Origin: a virus
Reading direction: 5' to 3' (one strand)
Length of the DNA: 29,344 bases
IMG/VR virus record: IMGVR_UViG_3300025141_000523
Location: 1-29,344 of that record
In this document: positions 20,588 through 26,318 of the stretch, one piece after another
Layout of the letters: each line of letters begins with the position of its first letter
Position numbering within the stretch: the stretch's first letter is position 1
Made by a program: the position numbers and the translations under genes
The notes under the pieces: generated by a model
The model's input: only the letters and a program-made list of their open reading frames with translations
What the model was told of the DNA's origin: nothing
Databases searched by the model: none

Positions 20588-20659
20588 AGCGAGTAGGTGG
20601 AATTGCACCCCTTCTTTGACTTGGAATAGCCAACGCATTACTCCTTATGCTTTACTCGC
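20588..20659 (-). tRNA. tRNA-Gly(UCC)-like element, atypical
   Basis: The 72-nt element has a perfect 7-bp acceptor (GCGAGTA with TACTCGC), a 4-bp D stem (GCAT/ATGC) with A14, G18, G19 and A21-like bases, and a 5-bp anticodon stem (TTGGC/GTCAA). The anticodon is TCC at 20625-20623, flanked by T33 and A37. G1-C72, C2-G71, G3-C70, U73 and C35-C36 are the known bacterial glycine identity elements. Odd points: A instead of U8, an 8-nt anticodon loop, and a T-arm with only 3 of 5 canonical pairs and G for T55 (or a 4-bp GGTG/CACC stem). CCA is not encoded; CAA follows. Its 5' end overlaps the last codons of the second mom-like gene. It may be a non-translational glycyl donor or a decayed tRNA. Confidence 0.6.
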
Positions 20660-21322
20660 AGTTTGCCTTTCTTTTAATGTTATCTTTTCACCTTTATACA
20701 TTCCTGCACCTATTTTATCTATTTCGCTAAAAGGAATAATTGGTTTGGTTAAATTACTTTCCATTTTCTTATCTATAAAATATATATACTTTAACTGATA
20801 ACCTTCATACGCTTTCCAATTTCTAAACTCACTACTCATTTTTAAATGGTATGCCTGTATAACGTGCATTGGTTTTTTAGTTTCAGGATTTATTCTTAAA
20901 GCAGTATTCTTTGCAATACCTACTAACTTAAACCCACTAGCTCTATATATTGTTCCATCTCCACATTGTGTTCCATCTGCAAAGCTAATTATCCATTTTA
21001 TTTGAGGTGCGTTTTTCTTTATTAATTTCACAGCAATACTTATACATCTACTTTCACTATATTTAGGTAAAAAATCATTAAAAGCCATTCTATTTAATTC
21101 TATAAACTCATTCCACCCTGTTCCATCTACCAAATTAATTGTTCCTTTTTTATTTATACTAGGTCCAAAACTCATTACTCCGTGTAAACGTTTATCTAAA
21201 AAGCAGCCAAAATGTAAAGTGCTATTTGGAACAACTTTTCCTGAATAATGTTGTTTCTTTACAAAAGTATTGGCGACTTTGCTTGTTATAACTTTAACTA
21301 TTATTTCTTTCGCTCTCCCCAT
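20645..21322 (-). CDS. Mom-like DNA modification protein, copy 2
   Basis: The 225-residue protein matches the Mom family (phage Mu Mom converts adenine to N6-carbamoylmethyladenine) in pattern: KQHYSGKV at 24-30, LHFGCF and HGVMSFG near 36-53, FIELNRMAF at 73-81, SESRCISIAVKL at 89-100, and IISFADGTQCGDGTIYRASGF at 111-131 in parts. Mom proteins have a GNAT-like fold. The carbamoylmethyl group is formally a glycinamide, and the donor was long unknown. A tRNA-Gly-like element begins inside the last codons of this gene, and another tRNA-like element lies just upstream of its start. Upstream lie a divergent second copy and a ParB-like gene. Role: anti-restriction DNA modification before packaging. 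Confidence 0.8.
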   Translation of the reverse strand: MGRAKEIIVKVITSKVANTFVKKQHYSGKVVPNSTLHFGCFLDKRLHGVMSFGPSINKKGTINLVDGTGWNEFIELNRMAFNDFLPKYSESRCISIAVKLIKKNAPQIKWIISFADGTQCGDGTIYRASGFKLVGIAKNTALRINPETKKPMHVIQAYHLKMSSEFRNWKAYEGYQLKYIYFIDKKMESNLTKPIIPFSEIDKIGAGMYKGEKITLKERQTASKA

Positions 21323-21330
21323 TTTAATTG

Positions 21331-21378
21331 TGGAGATGTGCAGGTTCGAACTGCATAAAACCCCTATTGGTCATCCCC
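21331..21378 (-). ncRNA. tRNA-Ala-like acceptor/T-arm minihelix (48 nt)
   Basis: Read on the minus strand: 5' GGGGATG, a 16-nt linker, a perfect T-arm (TGCAG, loop TTCGAAC, CTGCA), then CATCTCC and discriminator A. The acceptor has seven pairs, with G3:U70 as the only wobble. GGGG opposite CTCC plus A73 is the acceptor signature of bacterial tRNA-Ala, and G3:U70 is the main alanine identity element. There is no room for D and anticodon arms. CCA is not encoded; CAA follows. It overlaps the last five codons of the first mom-like gene and ends 8 bases before the second, filling the whole gap. AlaRS is known to charge such minihelices. Function here is inferred; a tRNA remnant after internal deletion is the alternative. 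Confidence 0.55.
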
Positions 21379-22062
21379 TGTTATCCATTTTTGTTTTTTT
21401 CTAAACACCTGACTATCTTTTGGATATTCTATACATTTTTTTTCTAGATAACTTCTTATTCCTTTATTAAGTGGATAAATATATAAATATCTAAAAGAGT
21501 TGATTATCTTTCCTTCTCCAAATAAATACTCTCCTACTTTTTGGCTTCCTAATTTTACAATTTCTCTAGGCACTCTACCAAAACGCATTGGAGAAATAAT
21601 ATTTTTATACTCTCCTTTTAGCGTATAGTAAAAATCATTACAAACTTCTTTTCCAAAATACAACCAACTACTCGCTTGATAAACAATACCACAATCATTC
21701 TTACATCCTCCTGCGTGTGTTATTAATAGTTTCACTTTCGTATTATCTTTGAATAATTTATAAATTTTTCCTAACACATAACTTTCAGCATTATGTCCTA
21801 AAATATCTGACAGATTCATTCTTTGCATTTCTATAAATTCATTATCATTAATTTTAGGAACTATCTTTTTTACTTTTTGTTCTGTACTAGGACTTAATCC
21901 AAAGGTAATAACTCCCCTCAATAATTTATTATAGAAAACTCCAAAACAAACTTTCGGAATTGGAAATGTTTTCATATAATGATTTTCAATAGTATATCTT
22001 TTTGCTGTTTTACTATCTATAATCTTTACACTTACATCTTTTAGCTGTTCGTTTTTCTCCAT
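21364..22062 (-). CDS. Mom-like DNA modification protein, copy 1 (divergent)
   Basis: The 232-residue protein aligns by eye with copy 2 along most of its length: ENHYMKT at 26-32, VCFGVF at 38-43, RGVITFG at 49-55, NEFIEMQRMNLSD at 74-86, ESYVLGKIYKLF at 93-104, and ITHAGGCKNDCGIVYQASSW at 114-133. The SFADG of copy 2 is THAGG here, so the Asp is missing, and copy 1 has its own Cys pair. The C-terminus is also different and basic. It therefore probably has a changed substrate or donor. It overlaps the ParB-like gene by 22 bases. The minihelix RNA begins within its last codons (GDDQ and stop). Confidence 0.7.
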   Translation of the reverse strand: MEKNEQLKDVSVKIIDSKTAKRYTIENHYMKTFPIPKVCFGVFYNKLLRGVITFGLSPSTEQKVKKIVPKINDNEFIEMQRMNLSDILGHNAESYVLGKIYKLFKDNTKVKLLITHAGGCKNDCGIVYQASSWLYFGKEVCNDFYYTLKGEYKNIISPMRFGRVPREIVKLGSQKVGEYLFGEGKIINSFRYLYIYPLNKGIRSYLEKKCIEYPKDSQVFRKKQKWITGDDQ

Positions 22063-22634
22063 TCAGTTATTAATAAATACAAAGCATTTCCATTACTGTT
22101 TTCATTTCCATAAGTTTCTACATATTTATATTCTTCAGTATGTTTTATATCTTGTACTGCTTCTTTTATTATATTACTTTGCTCACTACTTAATGTATAT
22201 GTTATTTGTTCTAAATTGCTTTTATCTCCATCAGGCAAACTAAACACATCGCTAGTTTCAATGTCATCTTCATTCTGCCATACATCTAAACCCCATTCAG
22301 CAAGTTGTACGCTATCCCATTCATTAGCTAACATATCCCACTCCCACTCTCCAAAACCTACATTGTCTTTTACGATAAACTCTTTCTTTTTTTCTTCAGT
22401 AAGTCCTTCAGCTACTTCTATCCATACTTCTTTAAGCCCTGCATCTTTACTAGCCTTTAATCTCATATTACCACCAAGCACAACCATATCTTCATCTACG
22501 ATAATTGGTCTTAGCTTTAGCATTTCAGGGAACTCCTGTATTGACTTTACTAACTTTTTAAACTTATCATCTTTTATTAATCTAGGATTATTAGGATTTC
22601 CTTTTATTTTGTATAACTTAACTTGTTGTTTCAT
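22041..22634 (-). CDS. ParB/Srx-like domain protein
   Basis: Residues ~10-75 have the ParB N-terminal-like pattern: NPNNPRLI, then KFKKLVKSIQEFPEMLK, RPIIVDEDMVVLGGNMRL and KASKDAGLKEVWIEV. GGNMRL corresponds to the nucleotide-binding GxxR region of the ParB/Srx fold. In phages such domains occur next to or fused with DNA-modifying enzymes, where they are thought to bind DNA or hydrolyse CTP/ATP. Residues 90-125 are Trp-rich and acidic (GEWEWDMLANEWDSV). It is the first gene of the modification cluster, overlapping mom-like copy 1, so a targeting role is plausible. No methylase domain is attached. Confidence 0.75.
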   Translation of the reverse strand: MKQQVKLYKIKGNPNNPRLIKDDKFKKLVKSIQEFPEMLKLRPIIVDEDMVVLGGNMRLKASKDAGLKEVWIEVAEGLTEEKKKEFIVKDNVGFGEWEWDMLANEWDSVQLAEWGLDVWQNEDDIETSDVFSLPDGDKSNLEQITYTLSSEQSNIIKEAVQDIKHTEEYKYVETYGNENSNGNALYLLITEWRKTNS

Positions 22635-22928: not shown

Positions 22929-23127
22929 TATCCCACATTTTATCTCCTTTATTCCCTAATGTAGGCTCTGTTCTTATAAGATCAGGCATACCTTCCTCTG
23001 GTTCACTTTCCATATATTCTCCACATTCACATAGAGCTTCTTTAGCTACCCATTTATTTTTATGAATTAATGTAACCTTTCCTAACTGTTTCTCGTTACC
23101 ACATTGACACTTATACAGAGCCATCAT
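22876..23127 (-). CDS. Small zinc-ribbon protein
   Basis: An 83-residue protein with CQC at 7-9 and CEC near 34-36, spaced as in a two-knuckle zinc ribbon (YKCQCGNEKQLGKVTLIH and KEALCECGEYME), followed by an acidic unstructured tail. Such ribbons in phages bind DNA or RNA or transcription proteins. It overlaps both neighbours. No specific family or function is recognised. Confidence 0.6.
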   Translation of the reverse strand: MMALYKCQCGNEKQLGKVTLIHKNKWVAKEALCECGEYMESEPEEGMPDLIRTEPTLGNKGDKMWDSAKEKLCGERGINEPFN

Positions 23128-23395
23128 GTAATCTATCTAATTCAAAGTGTAAATGGTTTATAGCTTTCCTTATATCTTGTACCATAGGATTATCTTCCTT
23201 TTTTCCTGCTCTTAATAAATATGTAATAGCAGTTCCTAAATTGTAATTATCAGATTGAAAATCCTCTACAACTTTTCTCGCTTCATACTTATGTATTTTC
23301 CCTATATAGTATTCTGGTATTTTATCCATTCCTTTTTGGTATTGTGGTACTTTCATTAACTCTATCGTTAGATAAAGCACCTGTTCGTGTTTCAA
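23111..23395 (-). CDS. DUF3310-family protein
   Basis: The C-terminal 55 residues (NYNLGTAITYLLRAGKKEDN, IRKAINHLHFELDRL) match DUF3310, a small helical domain widespread in phages, usually carrying the LGNAIKYxxRAGKK pattern. Its function is unknown; T7 gp1.7, a nucleotide kinase, contains a related region. The N-terminal 40 residues are less typical. It overlaps the upstream membrane protein gene by 74 bases in another frame, so the first residues may be wrong and an internal start is possible. Confidence 0.65.
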   Translation of the reverse strand: MKHEQVLYLTIELMKVPQYQKGMDKIPEYYIGKIHKYEARKVVEDFQSDNYNLGTAITYLLRAGKKEDNPMVQDIRKAINHLHFELDRLHDGSV

Positions 23396-25439: not shown

Positions 25440-25690
25440 AATAAGGATTCTTGTTTATGTAGTTGTGTAACTTGACTTTTTTTATAATTAGGGCGGGACC
25501 CTGATAACTCAAGCCCTGTTATAAGAGTATGTATAGTTAAACCTTTAGGGAAACCTCTTCTGCCATTTTCATGCCAAGCTATTATATCCCCATTTAATAA
25601 TTTCAATTTATAAGTCATAAGATTAAAATCATAGGGGCCATCATAAGGACCTATAATATTTATTATTGTTGCATTCATATTTTTAGACAT
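25436..25690 (-). CDS. Small beta-rich protein with C-terminal clamp-binding-like motif
   Basis: The 84-residue protein has a strand-rich core (YKLKLLNGDIIAWHENGRRG) and a flexible Ser/Lys tail ending exactly in QESLF. Bacterial sliding-clamp (DnaN) ligands carry the consensus QLxLF/QxxLF, often at the C-terminal end, so this may tether the protein to the host beta clamp. It lies between the ThyA-family gene (eight-base overlap) and the NinG-like nuclease (four-base overlap). No family recognised. The motif is short and could be chance. Confidence 0.5.
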   Translation of the reverse strand: MSKNMNATIINIIGPYDGPYDFNLMTYKLKLLNGDIIAWHENGRRGFPKGLTIHTLITGLELSGSRPNYKKSQVTQLHKQESLF

Positions 25691-26318
25691 TTAGTTTAAA
25701 TTTTACTGGTTCCCCATTTAATAAGGCAATTGTTTTATCTATATTATTTGAATATATATGAGCATTGCCAATAAAAAAAGTAATATTATCTAATGGTATA
25801 TCGATCATGCGGCTAATTAAAAAAGCATGATATATATCGCTAGGTAACCCTAAATTACTATCCGCTGATCTTTGATATACTGTAATATATAATTTATTAT
25901 TACTGATCTGAAATTGAAATAATGATAAACATGGTAGCTGACTAGTCTCTACTCCTGTTTCTCCTATAAATAGCATATAATTTTTAGAAGGTCTTTTCTC
26001 TTTATTTATCTTTTCTATTAAAGCTGGTAGTTTTTTAAAATAAGTAGGATAAGTATTTACCATATTCGGGGCACAATAATTCCACCAGGTAATCCCTACT
26101 GCATTATAATCTTTTACAGATGTTACCCCGCTGCAATATAATTCTAACTCCTTAGAAAGCTTCTTTTTAGCTATCGGGTGTTCTGTGATTATTCTTAGTA
26201 CGTCCTCTAAATTCATCGATAATACTTCATTTAATAGATATTTAATATCCCCTTTCTTATTTTTTTGTTCTTGACCATTGGTTAAAATCTTACTGAGTAG
26301 TTTATAATATTTATTCAT
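25683..26318 (-). CDS. ThyA-family enzyme, probable dCMP-type (dCMP hydroxymethylase or methylase)
   Basis: The C-terminal half is clearly thymidylate-synthase-like: LPC130LSLFQF (nucleophile Cys), YQRSAD at 148-153, LGLPSD161I, and NAHIYSN at 185-191, with His187 and Tyr189 for the sugar. TSs have Asn in GLPFNI; here it is Asp161. This Asn/Asp position sets dUMP versus dCMP preference: T4 dCMP hydroxymethylase has Asp, and Asn-to-Asp in L. casei TS gives dCMP use. The residue after Cys is Leu rather than His, and the paired Arg of the other subunit are not apparent (SKN near 111-113). Length is 211 against ~264 for E. coli ThyA. It suggests modified cytosine (hydroxymethyl or methyl) in phage DNA, though no dCTPase or kinase is visible. 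Confidence 0.78.
   Translation of the reverse strand: MNKYYKLLSKILTNGQEQKNKKGDIKYLLNEVLSMNLEDVLRIITEHPIAKKKLSKELELYCSGVTSVKDYNAVGITWWNYCAPNMVNTYPTYFKKLPALIEKINKEKRPSKNYMLFIGETGVETSQLPCLSLFQFQISNNKLYITVYQRSADSNLGLPSDIYHAFLISRMIDIPLDNITFFIGNAHIYSNNIDKTIALLNGEPVKFKLNV

Follow-up and report, generated by a model that had tools for sequence, protein, structure and literature searches.

A short thymidylate synthase-family protein of Bacteroidota phages, probably specific for dCMP

Hydroxymethylation by phage T4 gp42 requires Asp145, which interacts with Ser94, and the D145N change already abolishes 5hm-dCMP formation (PMC6400193). The published hydroxymethylase signature consists of Asp or Glu three residues before the Cys and Ser or Thr two residues before the Tyr (PMC6400193). 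In the DNA of phage Xp12, cytosine is fully 5-methylcytosine (PMC8670742, PMC9206674). The CMP hydroxymethylase MilA carries Lys133 at the position of Arg126 in E. coli ThyA (EcThyA), and its A176S variant is shifted toward dCMP (PMC5175136). MetaGPA identified position 147 as the second position associated with modified-cytosine contigs, and the N177D/N229D thymidylate synthase (TS) literature, as cited there, backs Asp as the dCMP selectivity residue (PMC8670742).

Here we describe a short TS family, a variant inside the TS superfamily not described before and probably dCMP-specific. A literature search on thymidylate synthase in Bacteroides phages and on modification of their DNA gave nothing directly about it, the main texts of two hankyphage studies mention neither thymidylate nor ThyA, and public annotation usually reads just "thymidylate synthase". 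The window is the whole stretch of viral DNA analysed (29,344 nucleotides, IMG/VR record IMGVR_UViG_3300025141_000523), and its family member is encoded as follows:

25683..26318, minus strand, gene for a short TS-family protein of 211 amino acids, putatively dCMP-type, with an ATG start and matches to PF00303 and PHROG

The protein scores 84.1 bits against PF00303 in Pfam (gathering score cut-off 24.3; E 1.2e-23) and matches PHROG 160 (thymidylate synthase) with E 1.8e-30, which bears out the short ThyA-family enzyme proposed here in the first-pass annotation. Compared with four near relatives, the window gene has a dN/dS of 0.05-0.16 with synonymous sites near saturation; it evolves under purifying selection. 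Searching with the family produced 296 viral-contig matches and 253 genome-contig matches, the latter almost all Bacteroidota, and the best 80 of the 296 and the best 80 of the 253 were kept for analysis. Phages and prophages of Bacteroidota carry the family widely, in their hundreds, with the gut hankyphage among them. The window phage likely has a flavobacterial host, since its terminase is nearest to that of Flavobacterium phage 11b. Two distant copies of the short gene lie on one chromosome in Bacteroides ilei (L113 and L115) and in Flavobacterium sp. NK2020 (L132 and L148), consistent with two related prophages in each. Copies with in-frame stop codons, at L120 (10001-10636) and in the genome of L111 (G009:C46:81100-81732), are apparently decayed or misassembled.

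Residue counts come from 137 aligned proteins, the window protein and 136 non-redundant members of its family. The codons of the active-site positions are, all on the minus strand:

26148..26150, Glu57, at EcThyA Glu58 (folate activation), 136/137
26073..26075, Cys82, at EcThyA Trp83 and T4 gp42 Val85; Cys in 130, Val in 6 and Thr in 1 of 137
25983..25994, Arg109 to Lys112, segment in place of the cross-dimer phosphate-binding Arg pair
25938..25940, Gln127, three residues before Cys130, at EcThyA Leu143 and T4 gp42 Asp145, 137/137
25929..25931, Cys130, predicted catalytic nucleophile, invariant in the family and in all TS and gp42 rows
25926..25928, Leu131, at EcThyA His147; Leu in 135/137, Ile in 2/137
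25836..25838, Asp161 (GAT), at EcThyA Asn177 and T4 gp42 Asp179, 137/137

The catalytic Cys, Glu58, Arg166-Ser167, Asp169 and Tyr209 of the TS superfamily are all conserved in the family, with Arg150 and Ser151 invariant (137/137). At the selectivity position the window motif is YQRSADSNLGLPS-D161-I, and the Asn of canonical dUMP-using TS at position 177 is absent throughout the family. The Asp at the dUMP/dCMP selectivity position and the Leu after the catalytic Cys, both noted in the first-pass annotation, thus hold well beyond the window. Because Asp161 is invariant and Leu131 nearly so, the Asn-to-Asp change is neither an error nor chance. Family invariance, the change at position 147 and the N177D/N229D literature together support reading Asp161 as a residue of the dCMP type. 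The same annotation had the Arg pair missing, and this is also what we see: hhalign places Lys112 and Asn113 at EcThyA Arg126 and Arg127, while a second alignment moves the register by one residue. Ser111, Lys112 and Asn113 are invariant, and Arg109, three residues ahead of Lys112, occurs in 135/137.

The alignment of Lys112 with EcThyA Arg126, and so with MilA Lys133 (PMC5175136), could point to a MilA-like enzyme that takes both CMP and dCMP and has RNA or a ribonucleotide as its end use. That register depends on the alignment, however, and Ser151 stands invariant where MilA has Ala176, the residue whose replacement by Ser shifts MilA to dCMP (PMC5175136). Ala at the Ser167 position, the MilA type, does not occur in the family, and we give this explanation hardly any weight.

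An AlphaFold2 model of the window protein has the TS fold (pLDDT 95.8). VIA-align places 210 of its 211 residues on residues 1-264 of E. coli TS (Z 24.1, rmsd 1.9), with the last residue on 264; model confidence averages 90 over residues 201-210 and is 66 at the terminal residue. A second model, of a hankyphage member, likewise extends to the TS C-terminus. Since this model is weaker (pLDDT 78.9, with the active-site loop 79-89 under 50), it was used cautiously and for C-terminal placement only. The segment in question is:

25686..25700, minus strand, codons of the C-terminal tail F207-K-L-N-V211, identified by sequence conservation and both models

F-x-L-N-[VTI] is found in 136/136 family sequences, terminal or at most two residues from the end. 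Both structure models place it at the TS C-terminus, predicting a TS-like tail that closes the active site; hhalign leaves it unaligned to TS. The best structural matches of the window model are TS; T4 gp42 is absent from the best 50 structural matches listed, an absence compatible with similarity. An ordinary divergent TS acting on dUMP would explain these matches and the public annotation. The matches reflect fold rather than substrate, however, and such an enzyme is at odds with an invariant Asp in the specificity position and with Leu at 147. Full-length ThyA alongside the short gene in 15/15 host genomes checked also speaks against it; dTMP supply is therefore not the obvious need, and we consider this explanation very unlikely.

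The first-pass annotation had likened the enzyme to T4 gp42. The Asp at the selectivity site stands, but the gp42 signature is missing and a TS-like tail is predicted. Three residues before Cys130, at the water-activating site, the family has Gln127 rather than Asp or Glu, and two ahead of Tyr93 it has Pro91 rather than Ser or Thr (137/137 each), with Thr92 one before Tyr93. In hhalign, Gln127 pairs with EcThyA Leu143. The signature does occur in the 12 sequences of the gp42 group and in a protein of Agathobaculum phage AB434P2 (L020 2638-3300; Asp at -3, Ser two before Tyr), which also has Asp at the selectivity site; annotated as a deoxyuridylate hydroxymethyltransferase, it looks like a dCMP hydroxymethylase.

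Phylogenetically, the short TS family is a single clade with support 100 on a long branch. A joint clade with gp42 is compatible with the data (AU test, p-AU 0.35), and grouping with a clade of Edwardsiella phage IW-1-type TS that have Asp177 has support 69. The IW-1-type TS (L023 2989-3786; L180-L230) have Asp at 177 in 15/16 aligned rows and keep the TS-like Leu143, His147 and, mostly, Trp83; they are a candidate further dCMP-methylase clade.

A dCMP hydroxymethylase, in which the exocyclic methylene would take up water rather than hydride to give 5-hydroxymethyl-dCMP, would agree with the compatible joint clade, with Asp161, with a Lys for EcThyA Arg21 as in gp42, with Cys82 for Trp83 (Val85 in gp42) and with a polar Gln127 where TS carries Leu. 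Yet Gln127 and Pro91 are not the signature residues, the C-terminal tail is conserved, and neither a glycosyltransferase nor a dNMP kinase was seen. This alternative appears unlikely, though as the main rival it deserves consideration.

The explanation we prefer, at slightly short of an even chance, is a dCMP-specific TS-family enzyme that acts as a natural dCMP C5-methylase, its product 5-methyl-dCMP being used by the phage as DNA protection. Sequence and predicted structure indicate a TS fold with intact Cys130, Glu57, Tyr93, Arg150-Ser151, Asp153 and His187/Tyr189, combined with the Asn-to-Asp switch. In the proposed reaction, Cys130 would attack C6 of dCMP, Asp161 would pair with cytosine N3/N4, and methylene-tetrahydrofolate would donate the one-carbon unit to C5. 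Hydride transfer would then finish the reaction, yielding 5-methyl-dCMP and dihydrofolate; this ending is the most likely one, given a TS-like tail that the models predict to be retained and the lack of the water-activating Asp of T4 gp42. By way of host kinases, some 5-methylcytosine would enter the phage DNA as protection. In many relatives this would occur alongside N6-adenine methylation by an adjoining D12 methyltransferase, and in the window phage alongside two mom-like genes.

We lean to methylation over hydroxymethylation because the gp42 signature is absent, the tail is TS-like, and the TS of the Xp12 relatives DLP4 and PaMx28 have Asp at 177 and a polar Asn at 143 (with Pro at 147). 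The residues are mixed and the calibration set is small: Cys82 for Trp83 and the polar Gln127 lean slightly to gp42, against methylation. Since the DLP4 and PaMx28 proteins are without TS-type C-terminal residues and are themselves only presumed to methylate, the tail as a rule for methyl versus hydroxymethyl is not firmly calibrated.

Of the non-redundant loci (<90% identity), 72 have genes on either side; in 35 of these a D12 N6-adenine DNA methyltransferase directly adjoins the short TS gene, always on the same strand and with a median gap of 0. The methyltransferases were called by Pfam (main cluster) or by motif (second small cluster), and they lie upstream or downstream, both orders occurring. 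As most of these phages are related Mu-like prophages, the 35 adjacencies represent linkage rather than 35 independent events. Adjacency in about half of the loci fits a DNA-modification role. In annotated hankyphages the pair occupies the right end of the Mu-like genome, the end at which phage Mu carries mom (35985-36416 of 36717). A right-end late gene in Mu-like genomes would come into play after much of replication, which counts against the preferred explanation. The window and its closest relatives carry the short TS gene in the replication region, near a NinG-like gene. A DUF3310-family gene is found at window 23111-23395. The window also contains two mom-like genes:

20645..21322, minus strand, mom-like gene 1, accessory (PF25680, E 7e-49; no counterpart found in related loci)
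21364..22062, minus strand, mom-like gene 2, accessory (PF25680, E 5.5e-38; no counterpart found in related loci)

Together with a ParB-like gene, these form an accessory island (window 20645-22634). In the close syntenic relative L003 the mom/ParB island is missing and its flanking genes are 15 bases apart, while the ThyA-like gene is kept; near the other loci of the family, no mom match was found. The link between mom and the ThyA-like gene is therefore weak, and cooperation of the two was set aside. Joint modification of cytosine and adenine in this phage, as the first-pass annotation suggested, is possible, but not as a linked system. In Psychrobacter phage Y8A, a mom homologue (48%) and a gene annotated as ParB/sulfiredoxin fall under the same match, a hint that mom and ParB may recur as a pair.

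The pathway partners of T4 were also sought. A dNMP kinase (DNMK), a MazG-type pyrophosphatase and DHFR were not found in the window record, which may be incomplete, or in ten related records, and cytidylate kinase was not found in the ten; the records searched yielded no partner kinase, dCTPase-type gene or DHFR. Nor did a nucleotide kinase turn up when 24 less-annotated hankyphage proteins were scanned with Pfam. In control genomes cytidylate kinase, MazG and DHFR were found widely and DNMK in only 1/14, so that the DNMK search is weakly controlled. Because partner genes were not found, complete replacement of cytosine of the kind seen in T4 or Xp12 looks unlikely, and the T4-like form was set aside, as 11 records showed no DNMK, MazG or DHFR and ten of them no cytidylate kinase. 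For the same reason, 5-methyl-dCMP would need host kinases for its incorporation, which may be only partial. The missing partners would also suit a dCMP enzyme whose product does not serve DNA protection, for example if the host deaminates 5-methyl-dCMP to dTMP or if nucleotide pools shift. That the gene is tightly linked to a DNA methyltransferase at about half the non-redundant loci speaks against such a role, as do hosts that carry ThyA and have no obvious use for an extra dTMP route; we regard it as quite improbable.

Returning to natural dCMP methylation, a broader proposal that we hold to be doubtful is that the family is a clade of tail-keeping methylases of about 211 residues, present in hundreds of Bacteroidota temperate phages, gut hankyphages among them, which would form a two-gene unit with the D12 adenine methyltransferase and supply 5-methyl-dCMP for phage DNA. 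If true, one of the commonest human gut Bacteroides prophage types would hold an unnoticed pyrimidine-modification enzyme labelled thymidylate synthase. Induced hankyphage would then be an experimentally reachable model in which cytosine is modified at the nucleotide level although the usual T4 partners are lacking, and the family a natural test of which TS-superfamily residues choose methyl over hydroxymethyl.

Compared with known systems, the window protein shares with ThyA (PF00303; E. coli 2TSC/1KZJ) the whole-length fold, the catalytic Cys, Glu58, Tyr94, Arg166-Ser167, Asp169, His207/Tyr209 and, as predicted, the C-terminal tail. It differs in having Asp for Asn177, Leu for His147, Gln for Leu143, Cys for Trp83 and Lys/Asn for Arg126/Arg127, and it is about 33 residues shorter ahead of the tail, with the 95-113 loop shortened. 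T4 gp42 (1B5E, 6A9B) is likewise short, with Asp at the selectivity site, Lys at EcThyA Arg21 and no Trp83, but the window protein has Gln127 for Asp145 and Pro91 for Ser94, is without the Arg pair and is only 16% identical; gp42 is without the C-terminal tail that the window protein is predicted to have. MilA has the cytosine-type Asp and possibly a matching Lys at the Arg126 position, whereas the window protein keeps Ser151 (Ala176 in MilA) and is without the helical C-terminal part of this antibiotic-pathway enzyme. The Bosavirus/Pamexvirus TS-like proteins (DLP4, PaMx28; from or near the Xp12 genus) resemble it in Asp 177, a non-His 147 and a polar, non-acidic 143; however, they are about 300 amino acids long, keep the Arg pair, have a different C-terminus and 18-19% identity, and are encoded with DHFR, dCMP deaminase and pyrophosphohydrolase genes. 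The protein labelled "thymidylate synthase" in hankyphage p00 and in related prophages of Bacteroides belongs to the same family, with the same active-site residues and 57-59% identity over the full length, the p00 protein being 57-58% identical; its gene, however, adjoins a D12 methyltransferase at the right-hand end of a Mu-like genome, whereas the window gene is in the replication region.
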